Source: Novosphingobium sp. (lineage in GTDB: Bacteria > Pseudomonadota > Alphaproteobacteria > Sphingomonadales > Sphingomonadaceae). Taken from it: a DNA stretch of 35,707 bases. The notes below the pieces were generated by a model. The model saw only the letters and a program-made list of their open reading frames with translations, did no database searches and was not told where the DNA came from. The stretch spans positions 1 to 35,707 of the forward strand of contig JAGREN010000004.1 in assembly GCA_020446505.1 (NCBI GenBank). The letters are read 5' to 3'. Made by a program: the position numbers and the translations under genes. Shown here piece after piece: positions 3,842 to 32,021 of this stretch; positions within the stretch are counted from its first letter, which is position 1, and the number at the start of each line of letters is the position of its first letter.

Positions 3842-5087
3842 AGCGCAGCACCTGAACCGGATCCGTACTCGCCGCCTTCCACGCGGGATAGAGCGTGGCA
3901 AGGAAGCTGAAGACCAGCGCCATCACGCAGATCGCCGCGATTTCGACAGGATCGCTGCGGCTCGGCAGTTCGGTCAGGAAGCGGATCGAGGGATCCCAAA
4001 GGTTCTGGCCGGTCAGCAGTTCGATCAGATGCACGATCGGCTGCCGGAAATAGAGGAACACGAAGCCCAGAACCAGTCCGACCACGGTGCCCAGCGCGCC
4101 GATCAGGAAGCCGGTCATCACAAAGATCTTCATCAGCGATGTTCGCGTCGCGCCCATGGTTCGCAGGATGGCAATGTCCCGAGTCTTGGCTCGCACCAGC
4201 ATGATGAGCGAGGACAGGATGTTGAATACGGCGACCAGCACGATGATCGACAGCACCACGAACATGGCGACGCGCTCTACCGCGAGCGCCTCGAACAGGG
4301 TCGCGTTGATCGTCTTCCAGTCGCTGATGATCGCCTTGCCCGCAAGCTTTTGCGAGAGAGGCGCGAGTATCTCGCCGACCCTGTCCGGGTCCTCGGTCGT
4401 GACCTCGATCATGCCGATGCTGTCGCCCGACAGCAGCAAGGTCTGGGCATCGCGCATCGGCATGACGACAAACGCCTGATCGTAGTCGTAGACGCCGATC
4501 TCGAAGATGGCCGAGACATTGTAGGCGATCTGGCGCGGCACCGTGCCGAAAGGGGTGGAGCGGCCCTGCGGATTGATGATCGTGATCGAATCGCCGACGC
4601 GCGCGCCGAGGTTCTCGGCAAGACGCGCACCGATGGCCACGTTGCCACTGCCCGGCTGCAAGTCCTGCCAGCGCCCGACTTTCATCTTGGGAGCGAGCCG
4701 GCGGATATCCTCGCCTGTGTTGCCACGCACCAGCACCGCTTCGACCCTGCCGTTGAAGCTGCCCAGCAGCGGCTGTTCGATCAGCGGGGACGCGCGGGTC
4801 ACGCCGGGCGTTGCGCGAACGTCCCTGAGCACGGACTGCCAGTTATCGAGCCTGCCGCCATAGGCCTGGATGATGGCGTGACCGTTCAGCCCCACGATCT
4901 TGTCGAACAGTTCGGCGCGGAACCCGTTCATCACACTCATCACGATGACGAGCGCTGCAACGCCCAGCATGACCGCGACAAGGCTGATGCCCGCGACCAG
5001 CGCAATGAAGGCCTCGCTCCTGCCCGGAAGCATGTATCGCTTGGCAATGGTCCATTCGAAGGGAGAGAGGAGCAAGCGTCGAGCCAT
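3834..5087 (-). CDS. lolC: lipoprotein-releasing system permease (LolC/LolE type)
   Basis: A 417-residue inner membrane subunit of the Lol export complex. The N-terminus [11 protein letters not shown] followed by a transmembrane segment (about 22-50) and [15 protein letters not shown] is the LolC/LolE hallmark. A large periplasmic MacB-like domain follows (about 50-265), then the FtsX-type region with three membrane segments, including [20 protein letters not shown], the coupling helix that contacts LolD. Only one permease gene is present next to lolD here, so the complex may be a homodimer, as known for some alphaproteobacteria, or a second permease lies elsewhere. The gene is first in the unit; no strong ribosome binding site is visible. 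The choice between the names lolC and lolE is arbitrary. Confidence 0.92.
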
Positions 5088-5253
5088 TCAGTCAGCGCGG
5101 GAGAGCACCGGGCAATAGAGTCTGGCTGCAAGGCTGGCAAGCACGCGAGCTGCTCTGTCCCCTGCGACCGGAACAAGGCTGGACAGGCCGGGGGACCATG
5201 TTCCATGCCACGCGCGGCGAGAGAAAAGGCAAAACAATCGAGGATTCGCGAAA

Positions 5254-5757
5254 ATGGACGAACAGGCACGCAAGACCGCGCTGCGCATGATCCCCTATGG
5301 CATCTATGTGATGACCGCCGAGGCAAAGGGCGAGGCTCCTGCCGCCGCGACGGTGAACTGGGTAACCCAGACGAGCTTTTCCCCGCCGCTGATCGCGGTC
5401 GGCGTCAAGACCGACTCGGGTGTCTATGCGGCCACCCGCGCGGCCGGGCATTTCGTGCTCAACATGCTCGGCAAGGGCCAGCAGGGCGCGGCCTTCACTT
5501 TCTTCAAGCCGGCCGAACTGGAAGACGGCAAACTTTCGGGCGAAGCGATCGAATGGGCCGCAAACGGCGCGCCCATGCTGAAAAGCGCGGCTGCTGCCGT
5601 CGAATGCAAGCTCGTCGAGGTCGTGGAACTGGGCGACCATCACACCTTCATCGGCGAAGTGACCAACGTCCATCTGCACACCGAGCCCGAAGGCCGGCCC
5701 GACGAGGCGATCCTTGAGATGAAGGAACTGGGCGAAAAGGTTTTCTACGGCGGCTGA
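5254..5757 (+). CDS. flavin reductase-like FMN-binding protein
   Basis: A 167-residue protein of the flavin reductase-like (DIM6/NTAB, split-barrel) family. Visible marks are the N-terminal IPYGIYVMTAEAKGE strand, the TVNWVTQTSFSPPLIAVGV segment that binds FMN in relatives, FVLNMLGKGQ, and a late DHHTFIGEVT followed by a short tail. Such proteins reduce flavin with NAD(P)H, serve as partner of two-component monooxygenases, or simply bind FMN; no monooxygenase is adjacent, so the role is open. GAGGA lies about 9 bases before the ATG. It is upstream of purF with a 104-base gap that contains a strong hairpin, so the two are probably not simply co-translated. Confidence 0.85.
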   Translation: MDEQARKTALRMIPYGIYVMTAEAKGEAPAAATVNWVTQTSFSPPLIAVGVKTDSGVYAATRAAGHFVLNMLGKGQQGAAFTFFKPAELEDGKLSGEAIEWAANGAPMLKSAAAAVECKLVEVVELGDHHTFIGEVTNVHLHTEPEGRPDEAILEMKELGEKVFYGG

Positions 5758-5769
5758 GGCCCTGATTAG

Positions 5770-5821
5770 GGGGCGGAGCGGCAATGCGGCGCGCTCTGCC
5801 CCTTGCAATTCATGCTGCAAG
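5770..5821 (+). promoter_or_regulatory. tandem hairpins in the purF leader
   Basis: First, an 11-bp stem 5770-5780 with 5792-5802 (GGGGCGGAGCG against CGCTCTGCCCC, one G-U pair, 11-base loop). Second, directly after and sharing one base, a 6-bp stem CTTGCA/TGCAAG at 5802-5807 and 5816-5821. They may end the flavin reductase transcript or control purF. No classical purine riboswitch pattern was seen. Confidence 0.45.
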
Positions 5822-5861
5822 CGCGCACATGCCCCGCATCGACGGCTGGCGCGGACCCTTG

Positions 5862-7343
5862 ATGAACATCACACATCCCTTCCTCGATGCTGACGGCGAC
5901 AAGCTGCGCGAGGAATGCGGCATATTTGGCGTGATCGGCGCTAGGGACGCCGCGGCCATGACCGCGCTCGGCCTCCATGCGCTCCAGCACCGTGGGCAGG
6001 AAGCGGTCGGCATCGTCAGCTTCGACGGTCATGAATTCTTCGCCCGGCGCGGGCTCGGCCATGTCGCGCAGGTGTTTGAAGAGGGCACTCTTTCGGAATT
6101 GCCGGGCGAGATGGCGTCGGGCCATGTCCGCTATTCCACCACCGGCGGTCAGGGCCTGCGCAACGTGCAGCCTCTCCACGCCGACCTGGCTCGCGGTGGT
6201 TTCACCGTGGCCCACAACGGCAACATTTCCAACGCGATGGCGCTCAAGCGCGAGCTGGTGAACAAGGGCGCGATCTTCCAGTCGAGCTCGGATACCGAGG
6301 TCATCATCCACCTCATCGCCACGAGCCGCTATCCGACGCTTCTGGACCGCTTCGTCGATGCCCTGCGCATGATCGAAGGCGCCTATTCGCTGATCTGCAT
6401 GACCACCAAGCGGATGATCGCCTGCCGCGATCCGCTGGGCATTCGCCCACTGGTGATGGGCAAGATCGGCGATGCGACCGTTTTCGCCAGCGAGACGGTC
6501 GCGCTCGACGTGGTCGGCGCCGAATTCATTCGCGAGATCGAGCCGGGCGAGATCGTCGAGGTACGGCAGGACGGCCGGATCACGAGCCATCGCCCCTTCG
6601 GCCCCCAGAACGCGCGCCCCTGCATCTTCGAACACGTCTATTTCAGCCGCCCCGATTCGACGATGGGCGGCCAGTCGGTCTACGCCGTGCGCAAGCAGAT
6701 CGGCGTTGAACTGGCCCGCGAATCGCTGGCCGATGCCGACATGGTCGTTCCCGTGCCGGACAGCGGCGTTCCTGCCGCCATCGGCTATGCGCAGGAATCC
6801 GGCATTCCGTTCGAACTGGGCATCATTCGCTCGCACTATGTCGGCCGCACCTTCATCCAGCCGTCTGACGGCGCGCGGCATGCGGGCGTAAAGCGCAAGC
6901 ACAATGCCAACCACCAGCTCGTCAAGGGCAAGCGAATCGTGCTGATCGACGACTCGATCGTTCGCGGCACGACCAGCCTCAAGATCATCGAGATGATGCG
7001 CGATGCAGGCGCTGCCGAAGTACACATGCGGATTGCCAGCCCGCCAACAGAGCATAGCTGCTTCTACGGCGTCGATACGCCCGAGCGGTCCAAGCTGCTC
7101 GCTGCGAACATGCAGATCGAGGCAATGGCAGACTTCATCAAGGCGGATAGCCTTGCCTTCATTTCCATCGACGGCCTCTACCGTGCCGTGGGCGAAGCGG
7201 GACGCAATGCGCAATGCCCGCAGTTCTGCGACGCCTGCTTTACCGGCGACTATCCGACGCGGCTGACCGATCTGGCCGAGCGTCAGTCGCCCGATCTGCT
7301 GACCCTGCCGCTCGATGATGAGAAGGCCAGCAAGGTCGCGTGA
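5862..7343 (+). CDS. purF: amidophosphoribosyltransferase (first step of purine synthesis)
   Basis: Makes 5-phosphoribosylamine from PRPP and glutamine. With the start at 5862 (MNITHPFLDADGDKLREECG) the protein has 493 residues; the glutaminase nucleophile is Cys19 in CGIFGV, exposed after removal of a short propeptide. The PRPP site is VLIDDSIVRGTTS near residue 365. Cysteines in CIFEHVYF, CFYGVD and CDACFTGDYPT match the four ligands of the [4Fe-4S] cluster of the B. subtilis-type enzyme. A longer frame begins at 5784 but its start is inside a hairpin and its extra 26 residues look unlike the family, so I reject it. The stop overlaps the GTG of the SDR gene by four bases (GTGA), so the two are coupled. 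Confidence 0.96.
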   Translation: MNITHPFLDADGDKLREECGIFGVIGARDAAAMTALGLHALQHRGQEAVGIVSFDGHEFFARRGLGHVAQVFEEGTLSELPGEMASGHVRYSTTGGQGLRNVQPLHADLARGGFTVAHNGNISNAMALKRELVNKGAIFQSSSDTEVIIHLIATSRYPTLLDRFVDALRMIEGAYSLICMTTKRMIACRDPLGIRPLVMGKIGDATVFASETVALDVVGAEFIREIEPGEIVEVRQDGRITSHRPFGPQNARPCIFEHVYFSRPDSTMGGQSVYAVRKQIGVELARESLADADMVVPVPDSGVPAAIGYAQESGIPFELGIIRSHYVGRTFIQPSDGARHAGVKRKHNANHQLVKGKRIVLIDDSIVRGTTSLKIIEMMRDAGAAEVHMRIASPPTEHSCFYGVDTPERSKLLAANMQIEAMADFIKADSLAFISIDGLYRAVGEAGRNAQCPQFCDACFTGDYPTRLTDLAERQSPDLLTLPLDDEKASKVA

Positions 7344-22959: not shown

Positions 22960-23046
22960 ACCAGCCCCAGGTCAGGCCTCGCTGGTTCGGGAGGCAACTG
23001 AAAAAACCGGTTCCCACTTTTTCTTGCGATGTTCTATGCGCCTGCC

Positions 23047-24195
23047 ATGCGCCTCAAAGACTGTCACAACATCGCGGACTTCCGCCTGCTCGCCAAGCAA
23101 CGCCTGCCGTGGCCGGTGTTCGATTACATCGACGGTGCCGCAGACGACGAACTGACCAAGAACCGCAACACCGATTCCTTCGCTGATTGCGATCTCGTTC
23201 CCGACGTACTTGCCGGCGTCGAGCACATCGACACTTCGGTCACGATTATGGGCCGCAAGAGCGCACTGCCCCTCATTCTTTCGCCCACGGCCCTGCAGCG
23301 CGTGTTCCACTGGCAGGGAGAGCGCGCCGTTGCCCGTGCGGCGGAAAAGTTCGGCCTGTGGTTCGGCATCTCCAGCCTCGCCACGGTCAGCATCGAGGAA
23401 ATCGCCGCACTGGTGTCCACCCCCAAGATGTTCCAGCTCTATGTCCACAAGGACAAGGGCCTCAACGCCTCCATGATCCAGCGTTGCAAGGATGCGAAAT
23501 TCGACGCGATCACGCTGACGGTGGACACTATCGTTGGCGGCAAGCGCGAAAGGTGCCTGAGGAGCGGCTTCGCCTCCCCGCCGACCTTCACGCCCAGCTC
23601 GTTCATGTCCTACGCGATCAAGCCGAAATGGGCGCTCGACTACCTGCTGCGCGAGAAGTTCGCCCTGCCCAACCTCGATACGCATGTCCGCGAAGGAACG
23701 GCCGAAGCCGTATCGATCCAGAAGTATTTCTCCGAAATGCTCGACCAGTCGATGGACTGGAAGATGGTCGAGCAGATCCGCAACGACTGGGGCGGCACCT
23801 TCTGTTTGAAGGGCGTGATGAGCGTCGGCGATGCAAGGCGCGCCGCCGACATGGGCATCGACGCGATCATGATTTCCAACCACGGCGGCAGGCAGCTCGA
23901 CGGCAGCCGCTCCCCGTTCGACCAGCTTCCCGAGATCGTCGACGCCGTGGGTGGGCGGATCGAGATCATCTGCGATGGCGGAATCCGGCGCGGCACCCAC
24001 ATCCTCAAGTCGCTGGCCGCAGGCGCCGATTGCGCCAGTGGCGGGCGGCTTTACCTCTATGCCCTTGCCGCGGCAGGCCAAGCGGGCGTCGAACGCGCGA
24101 TCCAGCTTCTCAAGGAAGAGATCGAGCGCGACATGAAGCTGATGGGCGTCACCAGCGTCGACCAGCTCAATCGTGAGCGGCTGCGCTGGCGCTGA
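23047..24195 (+). CDS. FMN-dependent alpha-hydroxy-acid oxidase/dehydrogenase, first copy
   Basis: A 382-residue (beta/alpha)8-barrel enzyme of the glycolate oxidase / L-lactate dehydrogenase / MftD family. Marks: FDYIDGAADDELTKNRNTDSF (first Tyr, near 24), ILSPTALQRVFHWQGE, FQLYVHKDK (second Tyr), TVDTIVGGKRERCLRSGF, and SNHGGRQLDGS with the catalytic His279 and Arg282; then CDGGIRRGTHILKSLAAGADC for FMN phosphate. The usual IGRPYLYGLA block reads GGRLYLYALA, a small variation. MRLKDCHNIADFR at 23047 fits the family start; the frame is open 18 bases further to another ATG and neither has a good ribosome site. It is followed 13 bases later by the EthD-like gene. Its substrate is unknown. Confidence 0.87.
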   Translation: MRLKDCHNIADFRLLAKQRLPWPVFDYIDGAADDELTKNRNTDSFADCDLVPDVLAGVEHIDTSVTIMGRKSALPLILSPTALQRVFHWQGERAVARAAEKFGLWFGISSLATVSIEEIAALVSTPKMFQLYVHKDKGLNASMIQRCKDAKFDAITLTVDTIVGGKRERCLRSGFASPPTFTPSSFMSYAIKPKWALDYLLREKFALPNLDTHVREGTAEAVSIQKYFSEMLDQSMDWKMVEQIRNDWGGTFCLKGVMSVGDARRAADMGIDAIMISNHGGRQLDGSRSPFDQLPEIVDAVGGRIEIICDGGIRRGTHILKSLAAGADCASGGRLYLYALAAAGQAGVERAIQLLKEEIERDMKLMGVTSVDQLNRERLRWR

Positions 24196-24208
24196 CCGGG
24201 AGAGTGGA

Positions 24209-24967
24209 ATGAATGCCAAGCTGATCTACCTTGCTCGCCGCAAACCCGGCACCTCGCGCGAGGACTGGCCGAAGCAGTGGAAGAGCCACGCGATCTACGC
24301 CAGCCAGTTCCCCTCGATCGAAGCGAGCCTCGAATGGCTGCGTTACGGCAACCGGGTGGACCAGCCCACGCTCGATGGGGCGCCGGTCGACCTGCCGATG
24401 CTCTCCACGGCCCATGACGGCGTCGCCAATGTCAATTCGGGCAAGAAGGGCGCGCCCCGCGCTGCTTCTGCCGCCGATCCGGAAATCCGCGCTGCGCTCG
24501 ACAAGGACGAGCTTCGCGTCTTCGATTCGCTGGTCAACGAGATCTCGTTCTCCTGCGAGGAAGAGCCGCTGCTCGAAGGTTTGCCGGGTGGCGCAGCGAT
24601 CTACGCGTTCCTGCCGCGCAAGGCCGGTCTGTCGAACGCGGAATTTCTGGCGCGCTATGAGGGAAGCCACGCCGATCTGGCGCGCGGCACTCTGCCTTTG
24701 CTCGCTGGCCTCAAGCGCTACGGCCACAACCGCGTGGTGACCGCGCCGCCGCCGCGCTTCCCGTTCGAAGCCATCTCGGAGATCTGGTTCGAGACGCCGG
24801 ACGATGCCGTGCGCGCGCTCAAGGATGGCGGGTTAGCGACGGTTCTCGACGATCTCGCAGAGTTCGCCGCCATGGACGAGGCCGTGATAATTCTCACGAC
24901 CCCGTGCCATGGCTGGCCGAAGGACGAAGCCCTGCTCAAGCGTGAGCAGGAACGCTCCGCCGGTTGA
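24209..24967 (+). CDS. EthD-like protein with two dimeric alpha-beta barrel domains
   Basis: A 252-residue protein made of two related halves: residues about 3-95 (KLIYLARRKPGTSREDWPKQWKSHAIYA) and about 135-245 (AIYAFLPRKAGLSNAEFLARYEGSHADLA). Each has the pattern of the EthD fold: a strand, a K/RxGxSxxEF helix and a His. EthD was first seen next to a P450 that degrades ethyl tert-butyl ether, where it is required but its chemistry is unknown; related folds include dehydratases and decyclases. GGGAGAGTGG lies just upstream of the ATG at 24209. The gene follows the first FMN enzyme closely and ends 32 bases inside the 3' end of the creD-like gene on the other strand. The P450 gene lies 1.6 kb away. 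Confidence 0.75.
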   Translation: MNAKLIYLARRKPGTSREDWPKQWKSHAIYASQFPSIEASLEWLRYGNRVDQPTLDGAPVDLPMLSTAHDGVANVNSGKKGAPRAASAADPEIRAALDKDELRVFDSLVNEISFSCEEEPLLEGLPGGAAIYAFLPRKAGLSNAEFLARYEGSHADLARGTLPLLAGLKRYGHNRVVTAPPPRFPFEAISEIWFETPDDAVRALKDGGLATVLDDLAEFAAMDEAVIILTTPCHGWPKDEALLKREQERSAG

Positions 24968-26366
24968 TCCCGCTCCAGTCGATGTTGCGGGTGGTGTACA
25001 TCACGCCCGCAAGCGCCACGAACAGCAGCACGGAGCCGATCAGCAGCGACCAGGCTTCGAGGTTCAGCAGCACATAGAGCAGCGCGTAAAGCCCGACCAG
25101 CAGCGCGCCGATGAACCGCGCCCTGCCCCAGCTTTTCAGCACCGCCGCGCTGTAGGCAGTCAGCAGTCCGATGATCGCGGCACTGGCGACGATATAGGCC
25201 CAGGCAAAGCCGATCACCTCGGCAAAGGCCAGCAGCATCACGAAGAACAGCACCAGCCCCGCACCAGTCATCAGGTATTCAGCCGCCGCGACACGCGCAC
25301 CGCCGACCACGTCGAACAGCAGGAAGGCGAGGAAGGTGAAGCCGATGAACAGGAACCCGTATTTCACCGAGCGGTCGACCTTCGAGTAGAGGTCGACAGG
25401 CTCGACCAGACCCACCGTCACTGCCCGCGACTGGCCCGAAACCATCTCCGAAGCACTCGCGCCGACCGTGGGAGGACGCATCGGCACCGAGAAATCCATG
25501 CCCGGCTCGGCATCGATTACGGGCGGGCCAAGGTCTTCGGTTGCAACCGGCGGCTGGCCCAGAGCCAGCTTGTCCACGGTATAGCCTGCCGAAAATCCGT
25601 CCTCACCGATCTTGCGGCCATCCGGCAGGAAAGCCCCGCTGAAACTGGGATTGCGCCAGGAGGACTTGACCTGCCAGCTCGTCTGCCCGCCGCGCGGGAC
25701 GAGGCTGAGCGAGCGGCTGCCGCGCAGGCCGAATGCGTAGTCGACATCCAGCTTTCCCTGTCCGTCCCACGGCAGGAAAGCGAAGAAGCCCTGCCCGCCC
25801 GTCGATCCCGGCCCCTTGCCCGGCTCCACCGCCAGAGCCTTGCCGCCTGCGACGAGCGTGCCGCCCTTGGTGAGGCCGCGCGCGTCCGACGCGCCCATGC
25901 GCAGTTCGGCGCGATCCCACAGCAGGCCTTCCGGCTTCACGCCAAAGCGCGGCAGGTCATCCGGCAGGGCGAAGCTGGCCTTGCCGGAGACCCTGGCTTC
26001 GTAAAGCACGCTCGAATAGATCGACTTGCGCCGTTCCTGCGGATCGATCTGCGTCGAAACCCGGTTCTCGACCGGCGAAATGTAGAGCAGGCGCTCGACC
26101 TCGACAGTGCGGGTAATGGCCTTGCCGCCCACTTCCTCGTTCTGCACTTCTGTCGTCTTAAAAGGCACGACCACGACCGGCCCGGCAATCGCCTGCGGCC
26201 CGCCCCAGCCGGAATTGATCGAAGCCTGAGCCGTACGCGACTGGTCCTGCCGGTCATAGACGAGCGCATAGACAAGCATCAGCGGTATCATGAGACATAG
26301 ACCGATCAGGCCTGCGAGAAGCAGCTTGATCCCCGGCGATCGCTCTTTCGGTATAGTCTCGTCCAT
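24936..26366 (-). CDS. creD: CreD-family inner membrane protein
   Basis: A 476-residue protein of the CreD (inner membrane protein of the Cre regulon, colicin E2 tolerance) type. Residues 10-33 form the first membrane helix (IKLLLAGLIGLCLMIPLMLVYA), a long periplasmic part follows (about 40-335) with GGPQAIAGPVVVVPF and VSTQIDPQERRKSIYSSVLYEARVSG, then DRSVKYGFLFIGFTFLAFLLFDV and at least four more helices to about 460. The family is poorly understood and linked to envelope stress in E. coli. GAGGGG lies about 9 bases before the ATG. No creB/creC regulator is adjacent. It interrupts the oxidative gene group on the opposite strand and is divergent from the P450 gene with a 166-base gap. Confidence 0.88.
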   Translation of the reverse strand: MDETIPKERSPGIKLLLAGLIGLCLMIPLMLVYALVYDRQDQSRTAQASINSGWGGPQAIAGPVVVVPFKTTEVQNEEVGGKAITRTVEVERLLYISPVENRVSTQIDPQERRKSIYSSVLYEARVSGKASFALPDDLPRFGVKPEGLLWDRAELRMGASDARGLTKGGTLVAGGKALAVEPGKGPGSTGGQGFFAFLPWDGQGKLDVDYAFGLRGSRSLSLVPRGGQTSWQVKSSWRNPSFSGAFLPDGRKIGEDGFSAGYTVDKLALGQPPVATEDLGPPVIDAEPGMDFSVPMRPPTVGASASEMVSGQSRAVTVGLVEPVDLYSKVDRSVKYGFLFIGFTFLAFLLFDVVGGARVAAAEYLMTGAGLVLFFVMLLAFAEVIGFAWAYIVASAAIIGLLTAYSAAVLKSWGRARFIGALLVGLYALLYVLLNLEAWSLLIGSVLLFVALAGVMYTTRNIDWSGINRRSVPAHA

Positions 26367-26532
26367 CTCGTCATCCCCTCTCGGTCAAGCACTTCATCGA
26401 TAAAAATACACGTTTCACCGACATGCCGCGTGTCGCATTACTCTTCGCTTAACGAATTTCCCGGTGCGAAATGCAACGGTGCTGGTGCTTTTTCTTGACA
26501 GGGCGCGCGTGGCAAGGAAGGTCCGCTTCGGG

Positions 26533-27726
26533 ATGAGTGTGCCAAGCGTCGATATTAATCTGTATGGTCCCGAGATGGCAGCGGACCCCTGGCCTGTGGT
26601 CAGGCATATCCGCGAGCTCGGCCCTCTGGTCTGGAATGAGCGCGGCCAGTGGATCACGGCGCATGACCGCGTCTGTCGCCAGATCATGAGCCGCCACGAA
26701 GAAGCCACGATGAAGGGCGTGATGACCTCGACCTTCGGCGAAGGCGCTTTCATCACGATGGACGACAAGCAGTCACACAATGCGCTGCGCAACGTGTGGG
26801 TCCACGCTTTCGGCAAGAACGGGGTCGACGGCCTGATCCCCTTCACGCGCCAGATGATCGAAGGCCGTCTCGACGCGGCCCTCGCCATGCTCGACGCCGA
26901 CGGCACGGTGGACATGCAGCCTGTGTTCTGCCGCCCGATCCCGGCCTATGTCATCGCGCACATGATGGGCGTCGGCGAGGAGATGATCCCCACGATCGTC
27001 GAATGGTCGGACAATATGGCCACAGGCACCACGAGCGGCCATCCCATCGACTACGAAAACGATTTCTACTGGCTCCGCGCCGAGAAATCGCGCGCCGACC
27101 TGGCGGACTTCCTGCTCGAACAGGTGCAGTACCGCCGCGACAATCCCGGCGAAGATCTCATCAGCCGGATCGTCCATTCCGAAATCGCCGCGACAACGCC
27201 TGACTGGCAGATGGTCGTCAACCTGCGGCAACTGCTGTTCGCTGGCAACGAGACGACCAGCAACTGGCTGGGCCATCTCGTGCATATTCTCGGTTCCCGA
27301 CCGGACGTGCGGGCCGAACTCGCTGCCGACCGTTCGCTGATCCCGCAGGCGCTGGAGGAAATGCTCCGCTGGCTCGGTATCGTTCAGGCCGTGCCGCGCA
27401 TGGTCGGCGAGGGTGGCATGGATGTCGCTGGCACGCATGTGCCCGAAGGCGCGCATATCATGGCGCTGATCGGCGCTGCCGGACGTGATCCGGAGCGCTA
27501 CGCCGATCCCGACACCTTCGACATCCACCGTGAGGCCAAGCCCCACCTCGGCTTCGGCTTCGGCATGCACACCTGCCTCGGTGCGATTCTGGCTCGAATG
27601 GAGACGGCGCAGGCAGCCAATGCCCTGCTCGACCGGATGCCGCCCTATCGCTTTGCCGAGCCTGTCACCTACGATTCGTTCATGCTGCGCGGTCCATCCC
27701 GGCTCGTGATCGAGCGCGCCGACTGA
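26533..27726 (+). CDS. cytochrome P450, first gene of the P450-FMN-Coq4 operon
   Basis: A soluble bacterial-type P450 of 397 residues. The oxygen-activation helix holds AGNETT (residues 237-242), the ExxR pair is Glu276/Arg279 in EEMLRW, and the haem ligand is Cys348 in FGFGMHTCLG. Start MSVPSVDINLYGPEMA at 26533 is preferred to the longer frame because relatives begin here; AAGGAAGG lies about 11 bases upstream. It needs a ferredoxin and a reductase, which are not in the window. It is four bases before the second FMN enzyme and seems to lead a five-gene unit. The TTGACA at 26495-26500 looks like a -35 box but lacks a matching -10. The family and substrate are unknown; a small or medium hydrophobic compound (terpenoid, fatty acid, steroid) would be usual. 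Confidence 0.93.
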   Translation: MSVPSVDINLYGPEMAADPWPVVRHIRELGPLVWNERGQWITAHDRVCRQIMSRHEEATMKGVMTSTFGEGAFITMDDKQSHNALRNVWVHAFGKNGVDGLIPFTRQMIEGRLDAALAMLDADGTVDMQPVFCRPIPAYVIAHMMGVGEEMIPTIVEWSDNMATGTTSGHPIDYENDFYWLRAEKSRADLADFLLEQVQYRRDNPGEDLISRIVHSEIAATTPDWQMVVNLRQLLFAGNETTSNWLGHLVHILGSRPDVRAELAADRSLIPQALEEMLRWLGIVQAVPRMVGEGGMDVAGTHVPEGAHIMALIGAAGRDPERYADPDTFDIHREAKPHLGFGFGMHTCLGAILARMETAQAANALLDRMPPYRFAEPVTYDSFMLRGPSRLVIERAD

Positions 27727-27730
27727 CTCG

Positions 27731-28960
27731 ATGAGCACGTTCCGCTTCCGGCTCGATCCGGGCGTACCCCCGGTCAATGTCGAGGAATGGCGGCAGGCAG
27801 CGCGGCGCAAGCTGCCCGGCCTTGCCTGGGGCTATATCGACGGCGGCGCGGACGATCTCGTCACCAAGCAGGCCTGCGAAGCCGGTTTCCGCCGCTGGCG
27901 GCTGCGCCAGCGTGCCCTGACCGGCGTGATCGCGCCCGACCTGACGGCGAAGATCGGCAATACTGAAATCTCCCTGCCCGTCGCGCTCTGCCCGGTCGGC
28001 GCGACCGGCCTTGCGCACTGGACCGGCGAGCCAGCCGCCGCGCGGGCCGCAGAAAGCTGCGGCACCCGGCTGATGCTCAGCACCGCGGCCAGCTACCGCG
28101 CCGAGGAAGTGGCCGACGCGACGCAGGAGAACCACTTCTTCCAACTCTACCCGGTCGGTCGGCGCGAGCGCATCGCCGCCTTGCTCGACCGCGTCAAAGC
28201 CGCGGGTTACGCCGCTCTTTTCGTCACGATCGACGTGCAGACAGTCGGCAACCGCGAGGACGAAAAGCGCTGGCAGTTTACCCTGCCGTGGACAGTCACC
28301 CCTTCCCGCGCGCTGCACATGGCGCGACACTGGCGCTGGGTCTACGAGGCGCTCAGGCACCGCCGCCTCGCCTCTGCGCATCACGCCGACGAGGCGAAGC
28401 TGCGCGCGCAGGAAGCAGAGGGCACGGCCTCGACCGGCAAGCTCACCGCAGCCCTTGCCGAAGCCGAGGCCTCGCAAAAATACATGGCCCGCGTCCTCAT
28501 CCAGTCCGACATGACCTGGGAAGACCTCGCCTGGATCCGCGACCACTGGCAGGGCCCACTCTATGTGAAGGGCATCCTCGATGCCGACGATGCCGCCCGC
28601 GCGGTCGATCAGATCGGCTGTCAGGGCGTGGTCGTCTCCAACCATGGCGGCAGGCAGCTCGACCGCTCGCCTGCCTCGATCGAAGCCCTGCCTGCCATCG
28701 CCGAGAGGATCGGCGACAGGGGCGAAGTGTTCCTCGATGGCGGAGTGCGGCGCGGCAGCGACGTCATCACGGCGCTGGCCTTGGGCGCCAAAGCAGTGTT
28801 TATTGGCAGGCCATATCTCTACGGTCTCGCCGTCAATGGTGAACAGGGCGTGCGCGATGTGATCGAGCTGTTCCGATCCGAGATCGCACGCGATCTGATT
28901 CTCATGGGTTGTCCTGCATCAAGGGCGCTTGACCGGGACTGGCTTATCCCCGCACCTTAA
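27731..28960 (+). CDS. FMN-dependent alpha-hydroxy-acid oxidase/dehydrogenase, second copy
   Basis: A 409-residue member of the same family as the first copy but clearly distinct in the substrate loop. Marks: WGYIDGGADDLVTKQ (near 38), CPVGATGLAHWTGEPAAARAA, FFQLYPVGRRERI, TIDVQTVGNREDEKRW and VVSNHGGRQLDRSPASIE with catalytic His305 and Arg308, then FLDGGVRRGSDVITALALGAKAVFIGRPYLYG. The GNREDEKRW block and the WTVTPSRALHMARHWRWVYEAL loop resemble the mandelate dehydrogenase-like group. It should oxidise a 2-hydroxy acid to a 2-oxo acid, passing electrons to quinone or O2. It lies between the P450 (gap 4) and the Coq4-like pair (gap 22), so it is probably part of the same pathway. Confidence 0.88.
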   Translation: MSTFRFRLDPGVPPVNVEEWRQAARRKLPGLAWGYIDGGADDLVTKQACEAGFRRWRLRQRALTGVIAPDLTAKIGNTEISLPVALCPVGATGLAHWTGEPAAARAAESCGTRLMLSTAASYRAEEVADATQENHFFQLYPVGRRERIAALLDRVKAAGYAALFVTIDVQTVGNREDEKRWQFTLPWTVTPSRALHMARHWRWVYEALRHRRLASAHHADEAKLRAQEAEGTASTGKLTAALAEAEASQKYMARVLIQSDMTWEDLAWIRDHWQGPLYVKGILDADDAARAVDQIGCQGVVVSNHGGRQLDRSPASIEALPAIAERIGDRGEVFLDGGVRRGSDVITALALGAKAVFIGRPYLYGLAVNGEQGVRDVIELFRSEIARDLILMGCPASRALDRDWLIPAP

Positions 28961-28982
28961 CGGGATCTGGGAAGGATACGAC

Positions 28983-29852
28983 ATGGAACGCGACTACACC
29001 TATTTCACCTCGGGCATCCGGCATGCCGAGCCGACCAGCAGCAACCTGCAGAGCACGTCGAAGTATCTCAACCATCCGGGCCTGCGTGACTGGCTGGTGA
29101 CGCATTTCCTGCGCCGCAACGGACCGGACATTCCGATCCCTTCCGATCCCGTGATGGGACTGACCCAGGCCATGGACGACCTGCGCGACGAGGCGGAATA
29201 CACCCGGCTGATCGACGCGGAGAAGGAAAAGAACCCGAAGGTCCGCAAGTGGCTGGACGAGGAACGGCCCTACATGAGCCTGACCAAGGAGGACTTTTCC
29301 AAGTTCGACCCCGAGACGTTTGGTGGCGTCTATTATCGCTATATCGCTGACAACAACTACGAGCTCAATCTCGGCTGGGGTTACGAGGTTCCAAAGGATG
29401 ACCTCACCTATATCCGCATCCGTTCCGGCCAGATCCACGATTTCGAGCACCTGATGACAGGCGGCCAGTTCAATACGCTGGGCGAACTGCTGCCCTACTA
29501 CTTCCGCATGTCGAACCCGTTTTCGCACGTTTCGCCCGAACTGGCGGCTTGCATGTCGCAGATGTACATCTTCGGCGGACATCGCCTCGTCATGCGCAGT
29601 TTCCTGCATTATCCGCAAACATGGCCGACCGTACTCGACCTCATCACGCGGGGCATCAAGATCGGCCAGACCTCGGAATGCACCTATATGATGGACTACG
29701 AGTCGGCGCTGCACCTGCCGATCCCCGAAGCCCGCGAAAAACTCGGCTTCCGTAACGCGGAAGACGTCGACACCTACGAGATGGACCTGATCTACACCGA
29801 GCAGGTCATCCCCGGCCAGGGCGAGCCGCCCATGCAGGAAGCTGCCGAGTAA
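28983..29852 (+). CDS. Coq4-like protein A
   Basis: A 289-residue protein of the Coq4 (ubiquinone biosynthesis) family. The metal-site motif HDxxH-x11-E is intact: His152, Asp153, His156, Glu168 in HDFEHLMTGG...LGE. Also visible: FDPETFGGVYYRYI, RIRSGQ before the motif, and FLHYPQTWPTVLDLITRG. Mitochondrial Coq4 binds polyprenyl intermediates and was recently assigned an oxidative decarboxylation at ring C1; whether these bacterial paralogues act on quinones is not known. The start MERDYTYF at 28983 has AAGGA seven bases upstream; the frame is open to 28929, overlapping the FMN enzyme. It is followed seven bases later by paralogue B. Compared with B it has a C-terminal tail GQGEPPMQEAAE. Confidence 0.88.
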   Translation: MERDYTYFTSGIRHAEPTSSNLQSTSKYLNHPGLRDWLVTHFLRRNGPDIPIPSDPVMGLTQAMDDLRDEAEYTRLIDAEKEKNPKVRKWLDEERPYMSLTKEDFSKFDPETFGGVYYRYIADNNYELNLGWGYEVPKDDLTYIRIRSGQIHDFEHLMTGGQFNTLGELLPYYFRMSNPFSHVSPELAACMSQMYIFGGHRLVMRSFLHYPQTWPTVLDLITRGIKIGQTSECTYMMDYESALHLPIPEAREKLGFRNAEDVDTYEMDLIYTEQVIPGQGEPPMQEAAE

Positions 29853-29859
29853 ACGGGCA

Positions 29860-30690
29860 ATGGAACGCGACTACAGCTATTTCACCAGCGGCATCCAGCA
29901 TGCCGAACCCAGTAGCAGTGCGCTGCGCTCCACCTCGAAGTATCTGAACCACGCAGGCCTGCGCGACTGGCTGACAACGCATTTCCTGCGCCGCAACGGG
30001 CATGATGTTCCGATCCCCTCCGATGCCGCGTCGGGCCTGTTGCAGGCGCTCGACGAAATCCGCGACGACACCGAAGTCCAGGCGCTGATCGACGCGGAAA
30101 AGGAGCGCAACCCGTCTTTCCGCGACTGGATCGACGAAAAGTGGCTCAGCACCATGCAGGTCGAGGATTTCGCGAAGTTTGATCCGGAAAGCTTCGGCGG
30201 CATCTTCTATCGCTACATGGTCGAGAACGGCATTGCTCTGAACCTTGGCTACAAGGATCCGGCCCCGAAGTCGGACATCGAATTCATCAAGATCCGCTCG
30301 GCCCAGATTCACGATTACGAGCATCTGATGACGGGCGGCGGGTTCAACTCGCTGGGCGAACTGGTCCCCCTTTTCGGTCGCATCTCCAATCCCTTCGCGC
30401 ACTATTCGCCCGAACTCGCCGCGAACATCGCCCCGCATTACATCTTCCTGTCGCACCGCATGGTGATGCGGGCATTCCTGCATTACCCGCAAACCTGGCC
30501 GACGGTGCTGGGCCTGATCCAGCAGGGCATCGCGGTCGGCCTGGCATCGGCATCGGTCTATGAAGCGCGCTACGAGGATGCCCTGCATCTCAGCATTCCC
30601 GATGCGCGCGACAAGCTGGGTTTTGTGGGCGCGACGGACTTCGACAGTGCCGATGCCGATCTCATCTTTTCCGAACAGGTGGTTGCATGA
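29860..30690 (+). CDS. Coq4-like protein B, tandem paralogue
   Basis: A 276-residue paralogue of protein A. 41 of the first 50 residues are identical by eye, and the region of the metal site is nearly the same, but the middle part (residues 90-140) and the C-terminus differ. The motif HDxxH-x11-E is intact: His151, Asp152, His155, Glu167. Both copies keeping the site suggests two active enzymes with different substrates, or a heterodimer, rather than one decaying copy. No separate strong ribosome site: AACGGGCAATGG has only weak pairing, so it probably depends on translation of gene A. Its stop overlaps the ATG of the cyclophilin gene by four bases (ATGA). Confidence 0.88.
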   Translation: MERDYSYFTSGIQHAEPSSSALRSTSKYLNHAGLRDWLTTHFLRRNGHDVPIPSDAASGLLQALDEIRDDTEVQALIDAEKERNPSFRDWIDEKWLSTMQVEDFAKFDPESFGGIFYRYMVENGIALNLGYKDPAPKSDIEFIKIRSAQIHDYEHLMTGGGFNSLGELVPLFGRISNPFAHYSPELAANIAPHYIFLSHRMVMRAFLHYPQTWPTVLGLIQQGIAVGLASASVYEARYEDALHLSIPDARDKLGFVGATDFDSADADLIFSEQVVA

Positions 30691-31325
30691 AGCCTGCTCT
30701 CTGGGCGCTGCCCGTCGCTCTGTTTGTCGCCATGCCGGTGGTGGCGCAGGACGGCCCGCCTCCGCCGCCCGAGCCGCAAACGGTCGAAGTCGTGCTCGAA
30801 ACGACGAAGGGCGACATCGTCCTTGCCATCGAGACCGAGCGCGCGCCGATCACCGCCGCCAACTTCCTGCGCTATGTCGACGAAGGGCGGCTCGATGGCA
30901 CCGTGTTCTACCGCGCGATGAAGCTCGACTGGGGCGAACAGCCCAATGGGCTGATCCAGGCAGGCACGCAGAACAATCCGAAGCTCACCCTGCCCCCGAT
31001 TGCGCACGAGCCGAGCACGGTGACGGGAGTGAAACACATTGCCGGAGCCATTTCGATGGCCCGCTATGCGCCCGGGACCGCCAGCGGCGATTTCTCGATC
31101 CTGCTGCGCGAACTATCCAGCATGGATGCCAAGCCTGACGGCAAGGACGAGGAAGAACGTGCCGGCTACGCTGCCTTCGGCCATGTGGTGAAAGGCATGG
31201 ACGTCGTCTTTGCGATCCACGCCGCGCCGATCGATCCCGAAAAGGGTTCCGGCTGGATGAAGGGTCAGATGCTGGCCGATCCGGTCAGGATCGTGGATGC
31301 GAGGCGAGTGGCCAGCAAGCCATGA
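30687..31325 (+). CDS. periplasmic cyclophilin-type peptidyl-prolyl isomerase
   Basis: A 212-residue exported prolyl isomerase. Signal peptide MKPALWALPVALFVAMPVVAQ (cut near residue 21), then a Pro-rich linker (DGPPPPPEPQ) and the cyclophilin domain: EVVLETTKGDIVLAIETERAP, NFLRYVDEGRLDGTVFYRAM with the catalytic Arg in FYRAM (usual form FHRV), LIQAGT, GAISMARY and AAFGHVVKGMDVVFAIH. The segment between the last two strands (ELSSMDAKPDGKDEEERAG) is a small insertion. The start overlaps the Coq4-like B stop (ATGA), so the two are coupled, which is unusual because cyclophilin is a general folding aid. It may help fold a periplasmic partner of the operon, or be carried along. Confidence 0.9.
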   Translation: MKPALWALPVALFVAMPVVAQDGPPPPPEPQTVEVVLETTKGDIVLAIETERAPITAANFLRYVDEGRLDGTVFYRAMKLDWGEQPNGLIQAGTQNNPKLTLPPIAHEPSTVTGVKHIAGAISMARYAPGTASGDFSILLRELSSMDAKPDGKDEEERAGYAAFGHVVKGMDVVFAIHAAPIDPEKGSGWMKGQMLADPVRIVDARRVASKP

Positions 31326-31346
31326 CCCCTCGCAGGCAAGGCTGTC

Positions 31347-32021
31347 TCAATTACCCGCCATTGTTCGTTTGAACCGGAGCGTGCGTTCATAGCGAACCAG
31401 TTCGAACGCCCCGCCATTGGCCCGCAGGAATTCGCCCGAGAATCCCGCGAAGCCAATGTCGTTGGGCTGGAACGAGATTGCCAGCGCCGCTCCGCCGCCC
31501 GGCACGACAAATTCAGGGCCAAGCAGATCCATCACCGGCAGCACTGGTCGGATCGACACGACCGGATTGTCTCCCATCGGAATGTCGAGACCATCGCTCG
31601 ACATTGTCTCGAACGAGGCCGAGCCGGCCTTGCGATGGATGTTCACCGCGAAATACTGCGGGTCGTAGCCATCCGGCACCAAGAGCCTGACCGAAAGCGC
31701 ACCACTCTTGCCTGGACTTTCGGTAAACGCGAAGGCCGGGGCCTTGAACGGATCGCTGTCGAGTACGATGCCGCCCTCCGCCCTCTTCCATATGCCGGCA
31801 GACCATTCATCGAGCGCGCCGTAGGAAAGCTGGTATCTGTACCGGCCGTCCTTTCCCAGTTCGAGCGCCGCGGCAATCTCGGTCTGGTTGCCGTCATAGA
31901 GCCCCGCAAGATCATCATCGGCACCCTGGGCGGCAGCCGGAACACCGCTCATGATCGCAGTGAAGGCAATCGCCGACGCCATGCGAACGGCATGGCTGAA
32001 ATTGAAAATCCTCTGGATCAT
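31347..32021 (-). CDS. secreted protein of unknown function, coupled to an acyltransferase
   Basis: A 224-residue protein with a likely signal peptide (AVRMASAIAFTAIMSGVPAAAQ, cut near residue 32). The mature part begins with an acidic GADDDLAGLYDGNQTEIAAALELGKDGRYRYQLSYGALDEWSAGIW, a beta-rich motif like that of many small periplasmic lipid- or sugar-binding proteins; the rest is beta-rich without a recognisable family. The ATG overlaps the stop of the acyltransferase gene by four bases (32018-32021), so the two are translated together and a shared envelope job is likely. I cannot name a function. It ends 21 bases from the convergent cyclophilin gene. Confidence 0.65.
   Translation of the reverse strand: MIQRIFNFSHAVRMASAIAFTAIMSGVPAAAQGADDDLAGLYDGNQTEIAAALELGKDGRYRYQLSYGALDEWSAGIWKRAEGGIVLDSDPFKAPAFAFTESPGKSGALSVRLLVPDGYDPQYFAVNIHRKAGSASFETMSSDGLDIPMGDNPVVSIRPVLPVMDLLGPEFVVPGGGAALAISFQPNDIGFAGFSGEFLRANGGAFELVRYERTLRFKRTMAGN

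Follow-up and report, generated by a model that had tools for sequence, protein, structure and literature searches.

A Conserved Accessory Unit of Cytochrome P450, FMN-Dependent Dehydrogenase and Two Coq4-Like Genes in the guaB–sdhA Interval of Some Sphingomonadaceae

Introduction

Among the closest known relatives of the Coq4-like proteins considered here are the COQ4/Coq4 proteins of ubiquinone synthesis. Human COQ4 is reported to act as an oxidative C1 decarboxylase that turns the ring carboxyl into a hydroxyl in one step (PMC11495197), and a Coq4 homologue is reported to bind lipid and Mg2+, with HDxxH-x(10–13)-E given as the Coq4 metal motif (PMC9774615). We analyzed a window of 35,707 nucleotides from Novosphingobium sp. 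(assembly GCA_020446505.1, contig JAGREN010000004.1), in which genes for a cytochrome P450 and a flavin mononucleotide (FMN)-dependent 2-hydroxy-acid dehydrogenase, hereafter FMN1, are followed by two tandem Coq4-like genes, Coq4a and Coq4b. These four genes are a real, conserved, accessory unit. No description of it was found in searches of one library of open-licence papers, where absence counts for little.

Coq4a and Coq4b resemble the Coq4 proteins of ubiquinone synthesis with solved structures, Alr8543 (PDB:6e12) and PDB:3msq, in the Pfam match of Coq4a (PF05019, 36.6 bits vs. the cut-off of 22.9 bits) and in the HDxxH-x11-E motif, intact in both copies (at position 152 in Coq4a and 151 in Coq4b). 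The structural model of Coq4a (predicted local distance difference test score, pLDDT, 84.9) is predicted to share the Coq4 fold, with TM-scores of 0.69–0.73 by target length against 6e12 and 3msq; Foldseek matched it to 3msq_A, 6e12_A, and 6e12_B at E about 1e-6, and found nothing besides these two entries under E 0.001. The differences from the solved Coq4 proteins are the low identity (13–20%), the duplication, and the joining to P450 and FMN1.

FMN-dependent 2-hydroxy-acid dehydrogenases have an active site formed by Tyr, Asp, Arg, Lys, His, and Arg, and use quinone as electron acceptor. FMN1 shares with LldD, mandelate dehydrogenase, and MftD the FMN_dh domain and this complete set (Tyr140, Asp168, Arg175, Lys280, and, in the motif SNHGGRQ, His305 and Arg308), but its NCBIfam scores remain below the cut-offs (269.4 of 376 for PRK11197, 238.6 of 550 for LldD, and 261.5 of 470.85 for MftD), so that LldD and MftD were both rejected as names for it. 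Among catabolic systems, the acyclic terpene utilization (Atu) cluster is relevant here through AtuA, assigned just tentatively as a lyase in the sources cited (PMC4847356, PMC9973270), and so are the steroid-type catabolic clusters of sphingomonads; both are compared with the window below.

Organization and Conservation of the Unit

The unit lies on the forward strand and comprises the P450 gene (26533–27726, 397 aa, PF00067, 79 bits), FMN1 (27731–28960, 409 aa, PF01070, 399.7 bits; of the LldD/mandelate dehydrogenase type), Coq4a (28983–29852, 289 aa), and Coq4b (29860–30690, 276 aa), a tandem paralogue that had no Pfam match at E 0.001, despite being 63% identical to Coq4a. The genes are separated by 4, 22, and 7 bases, respectively, and Coq4b overlaps by ATGA with a cyclophilin gene on the same strand (30687–31325, PF00160 (Pro_isomerase), 90 bits, with a signal-like start as judged by eye). 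The first-pass annotation had described five genes on one strand with this spacing and with intact catalytic motifs, and the coordinates and motifs agree: in addition to the residues of FMN1 and Coq4a/b listed above, the P450 carries the heme motif FGFGMHTCLG with Cys348, the I-helix motif AGNETT at 237, and EMLR (ExxR) at 276. A promoter scan of positions 26300–31500 found none (0.9 expected), and there are six terminator-like sites in the same span vs. 3.2 expected; both results are uninformative on the unit.

When named genomes were scanned with a Coq4 alignment, 102 relatives were confirmed, and the best 80 loci (L057–L136) were used; all counts out of 80 below rest on these. The unit or its parts recur in direct orthologue loci of four other sphingomonad assemblies, each partly cut by contig ends. 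These are L057 and L080 from the Sphingomonadaceae metagenome-assembled genome (MAG) DC_out238, L058 from a MAG labelled Novosphingobium sp. Chol11, L059 from a Novosphingobium MAG, and L060 from a Sphingomonadaceae MAG. L057 holds P450, FMN1, Coq4a, and the start of Coq4b, inside which the stretch ends; L058 has a partial P450 and then FMN1, Coq4a, and Coq4b; the latter three are seen in L059; and the stretches of L060 and L080 start inside Coq4 genes. Where both ends are seen, the gaps between the unit genes are 2–32 bases. Identity to the window copies is 67–87% for P450 (67% in L057, and 87% over the visible part in L058), 76–90% for FMN1, 80–84% for Coq4a, and 68–78% for Coq4b. For each gene, two or three pairwise comparisons were made, 11 in all and with four relatives; the nonsynonymous divergence (dN) is 0.067–0.229 and the synonymous divergence (dS) 0.679–1.248, with dN/dS about 0.09 to 0.22. 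Since dN is far below dS, purifying selection acts on all four genes.

The earlier suggestion of an operon conserved beyond this genome thus holds for P450, FMN1, Coq4a, and Coq4b, and fails for cyclophilin, to which none of the 80 loci gave a match at 1e-8. The sequence downstream of Coq4b is visible in L058, L059, L060, and L080: in L058 and L060, Coq4b is directly followed by the opposite-strand gene that in the window comes after cyclophilin, in L059 another opposite-strand gene stands between these two, and in L080 Coq4b is followed by sdhA. Given these different followers and the lack of matches, cyclophilin is a local neighbor, and the five-gene unit was rejected.

In the window, the unit lies between guaB (IMP dehydrogenase, PF00478, 523.7 bits) and sdhA. 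This interval was taken whole from eight same-genus genomes; in the ninth, G172, the two markers are ~880 kb apart, the interval was left out, and no match to P450 was found. The RsmB-like, IMP dehydrogenase, M28 peptidase, and sdhA genes are kept in all eight intervals and a zinc peptidase in seven. P450, the Coq4 pair, and the EthD-domain gene described below have no match in any of the eight, nor is there any FMN1 apart from its backbone paralogue FMN2; thus, the unit is an accessory insertion between guaB and sdhA. Between the unit and sdhA of L058 lies an acyltransferase gene that is split in two frames and adjoins an IS4/5-type transposase frame (4755–6801). Plasmid searches yielded matches to Coq4a, FMN1, and P450 that are all below 60% identity, and the unit was not placed by them; the Coq4a relatives on plasmid records come from Sphingobium (12) and Novosphingobium (6), plus one Synechococcus record.

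Coq4-Like Proteins: Phylogeny and Partner Genes

Relatives of Coq4a were found at E 0.001 in 19 out of 149 family genomes, with at most eight per genome. The Coq4 tree comprises 124 rows (rows shorter than 200 residues, one 208-residue row, and identical copies were left out) and is rooted at midpoint, with long branches at the root flagged by the program. The P450/FMN1-linked rows form one side of a branch (100/97), which splits into the Coq4a and Coq4b clades, both with rows from the window, L058, and L059, the Coq4b clade also including L060. As both clades hold all three, the duplication predates the split of the window, L058, and L059. Far from Coq4a and Coq4b, the 18 rows of ordinary sphingomonad Coq4 make up a side of their own (100/100). 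Judged from sequence, Coq4a and Coq4b are a duplication within a Coq4-like branch well apart from ordinary Coq4, which agrees with the earlier opinion that a standard ubiquinone role is unsupported.

An explanation of the opposite kind, that in this genome the two Coq4 copies work in ubiquinone synthesis and replace a missing decarboxylase, seems to us very improbable. In its favor, UbiD was not found in this genome, and UbiD matches occur in just seven out of 149 family genomes (PF05019 matches, in 82); the genus-typical ordinary Coq4, present in eight out of nine other same-genus genomes (one being the source of the query), yields here just a weak 28% match, to a paralogue on contig C11. However, the assembly, in 178 contigs, is 94% complete, and hence the missing UbiD and ordinary Coq4 cannot be pressed; by the same search, ordinary Coq4 was likewise not found in G288 (the same-genus exception), G084, and G071; Coq4a and Coq4b are remote from ordinary Coq4 in the tree; and the genome has two other Coq4-like genes, on contigs C11 and C26. 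As an observation in its own right, the ubiquinone decarboxylation step of many of the 149 family genomes is not accounted for by the UbiD and PF05019 searches. The C11 gene (L052) lies between an SDR gene and an epimerase/3Beta_HSD-like gene, with an Amidohydro_3-like match ~5.7 kb off, and its nearest tree rows are L124, L126, and L128.

The partners of the main Coq4-like gene differ among the loci. In 28 out of 80 loci, a same-strand AtuA is found at a distance of up to 1.3 kb, and in three AtuA is on the other strand; Amidohydro_3 is the partner in 24, and FMN1, with or without P450, in three; the remaining 22 have none of these partners, among them L060 and L080, the unit orthologues cut at the contig end. 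Distant P450s (25–29% identity) occur elsewhere in just four out of 80 loci. From the side of AtuA, 22 matches in 13 genomes chosen for carrying Coq4-like genes were reduced to 18 by dropping four weak or partial ones; 11 out of 18 have a same-strand Coq4-like match at most 0.8 kb away (in G118, one such match is a fragment of 63 residues), one has it on the opposite strand, and near the other six none is found. The sister of the P450/FMN1-linked rows consists of AtuA-linked rows from G016 and Erythrobacter litoralis (100/97 branch), and the next pair outward, of one Amidohydro_3-linked and one partnerless row. The AtuA and Amidohydro_3 labels cluster strongly on the tree, yet need eight and seven changes, respectively, which indicates that these partners were swapped. 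In the comparison with the Atu cluster, which covered AtuA, the window differs in having no AtuA match, the sole copy found in this genome being on contig C67. Gene clusters with SDR, TonB receptor, and TetR-type genes also recur around Coq4-like genes in the 80 loci.

The first-pass annotation had named Coq4-like genes unlinked to P450 or FMN genes as one observation that would speak against a joint pathway, and the picture is divided: the genes are linked in the direct orthologues, and elsewhere Coq4-like genes often stand with AtuA or Amidohydro_3.

P450 and FMN1 in Other Genomes

Relatives of FMN1 with at least 55% identity occur in four out of 397 family genomes (the window genome, G071, G156, and G341), and P450 matches at 1e-50, in five (the window genome, G088, G093, G156, and G341). 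In G156 and G341, which belong to other genera, P450 and FMN1 are neighbors on one strand, ~40 and 980 bases apart, with 44–45% (P450) and 53–60% (FMN1) identity to the window, and G071 has FMN1 without P450. The pair is accompanied in G156 by FMO-like, Cyclase-family, and SDR genes, and in G341 by genes for an HpcH/HpaI aldolase, a Ring_hydroxyl_A protein, and a TonB receptor; FMN1 of G071 has a KshA_C Rieske oxygenase and amidohydrolases as neighbors. These surroundings appear degradative, and the aldolase beside FMN1 in G341, from a family acting on 2-oxo acids, fits the formation of a 2-oxo acid.

Such pairs bear on a rival reading, by which P450 with FMN1 and Coq4a with Coq4b are two separate functional modules merely sharing an island. 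It would explain why no Coq4-like match was seen near P450/FMN1 in the stretches taken from G156 and G341, as well as the association of Coq4-like genes elsewhere with AtuA or Amidohydro_3. Still, we consider it rather unlikely, as the relatives keep the four genes together at short distances, even in L057, where P450 has diverged to the identity given above.

None of the named bacterial P450 families of NCBIfam scored above its cut-off for the window P450 (the best, 148 of 500), and among its relatives with solved structures are natural-product P450s, for instance PikC. The latter, together with the compact single-strand arrangement and the lack of an uptake gene inside it, would suit a biosynthetic tailoring cluster for a secondary metabolite or a modified lipid rather than a catabolic one. 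We regard this as doubtful: no synthase or other scaffold-making family was seen among the window genes scanned (a part of the genes of the window), and relatives of FMN1, P450, and the Coq4-like genes are found near genes of degradative type.

Proposed Function

Weighing these alternatives, we tentatively favor, as something short of an even call, the reading that the four-gene operon, present in the guaB–sdhA interval of some Sphingomonadaceae, encodes a catabolic module for the oxidative breakdown of a hydrophobic carboxylic acid, presumably terpenoid- or steroid-like. The P450 would hydroxylate a hydrophobic substrate, making or modifying a hydroxy acid; FMN1 would oxidize the 2-hydroxy acid to the 2-oxo acid, passing electrons to quinone; and Coq4a and Coq4b, perhaps as a heteromer, would take up the hydrophobic product within the Coq4 fold for a metal-dependent follow-on step. 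Because of the reaction of human COQ4 and the binding of lipid and Mg2+ by a Coq4 homologue, metal-dependent decarboxylation of a hydrophobic 2-oxo acid is a natural guess for this step. The predicted order, hydroxylation, oxidation, decarboxylation, agrees with the enzyme families, and the arrangement suggests that the Coq4 family has also been recruited for tasks other than quinone synthesis.

Catabolic-type genes around Coq4-like loci are consistent with this module. KshA-type oxygenases (PF19298) occur in 17, KstD-like genes in eight, and OYE genes in 13 out of 80 loci, each in none of 22 comparison loci, and acyl ligases, in 17 out of 80 vs. one out of 22; the KstD-like protein scores below its NCBIfam cut-off (544.5 of 789). 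Such genes are shared by some of the Coq4-like loci with the steroid-type catabolic clusters of sphingomonads, whereas the operon in the window has no KshA-type, KstD-like, or OYE genes.

Several observations weigh against the catabolic module. There is no transporter, acyl-CoA ligase, or ferredoxin gene within the operon, and oxidative decarboxylation as the Coq4a/b step is an analogy with human COQ4. Outside the direct orthologues, FMN1 is near a Coq4-like gene in none of the 80 loci, and the P450/FMN1 pairs of G156 and G341, as said, have no Coq4-like match nearby; the tree does not separate the AtuA and Amidohydro_3 partners cleanly by clade. The comparison of loci is weak, because the queries were drawn from the Coq4-like loci and the comparison set, ordinary Coq4 loci plus guaB–sdhA intervals, is unmatched (314 kb vs. 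1435 kb); moreover, FMO and acyl-CoA dehydrogenase genes are equally dense in it.

The joint oxidative pathway of the first-pass annotation is therefore upheld in part: the conserved unit and the recurrence of the P450/FMN1 pair in two other genera speak for it, and its five-gene composition does not stand. A broader version is conceivable, though improbable in our estimate: sphingomonad Coq4-like proteins may have been recruited from quinone synthesis as a family of catabolic metalloenzymes that hydroxylate hydrophobic acids or decarboxylate them oxidatively, many of them acting with AtuA or Amidohydro_3 in terpenoid or steroid breakdown, and in the window operon the P450 and a quinone-linked dehydrogenase would feed a Coq4a/Coq4b heteromer in a bacterial alpha-oxidation route.

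Other Genes of the Interval

Upstream of the unit, the EthD-domain gene (24173–24967, forward strand, PF07110, 59.1 bits) is a possible extra member: it is 58% identical to L057_7, which directly precedes P450 in L057, and was seen only in the window and in L057. In the window, it is separated from P450 by the inverted creD (24936–26366, reverse strand, PF06123), which is present in one out of eight same-genus intervals. FMN2 (23029–24195, forward strand, PF01070), the second FMN_dh enzyme of the window, has a shorter central insert than FMN1; it was rejected as a member of the unit, being a backbone gene present in five out of eight same-genus intervals, all without the unit, with 79–84% identity. 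In G111, creD lies directly 3′ of FMN2 and (locus L187) adjoins genes for a BlaR1-type M56 peptidase and a penicillinase repressor.

Implications

For a long time no reaction was known for COQ4, which is now reported as an oxidative decarboxylase. In the bacterial Coq4-like branch, where a single genome can have as many as eight matches, there are relatives, possibly active outside quinone synthesis, that can be deleted and assayed; through them, the chemistry of the fold could be tested without the coenzyme Q (CoQ) complex. Compared with the operon itself, the wider association between Coq4-like genes and AtuA or Amidohydro_3 may be the more useful lead.

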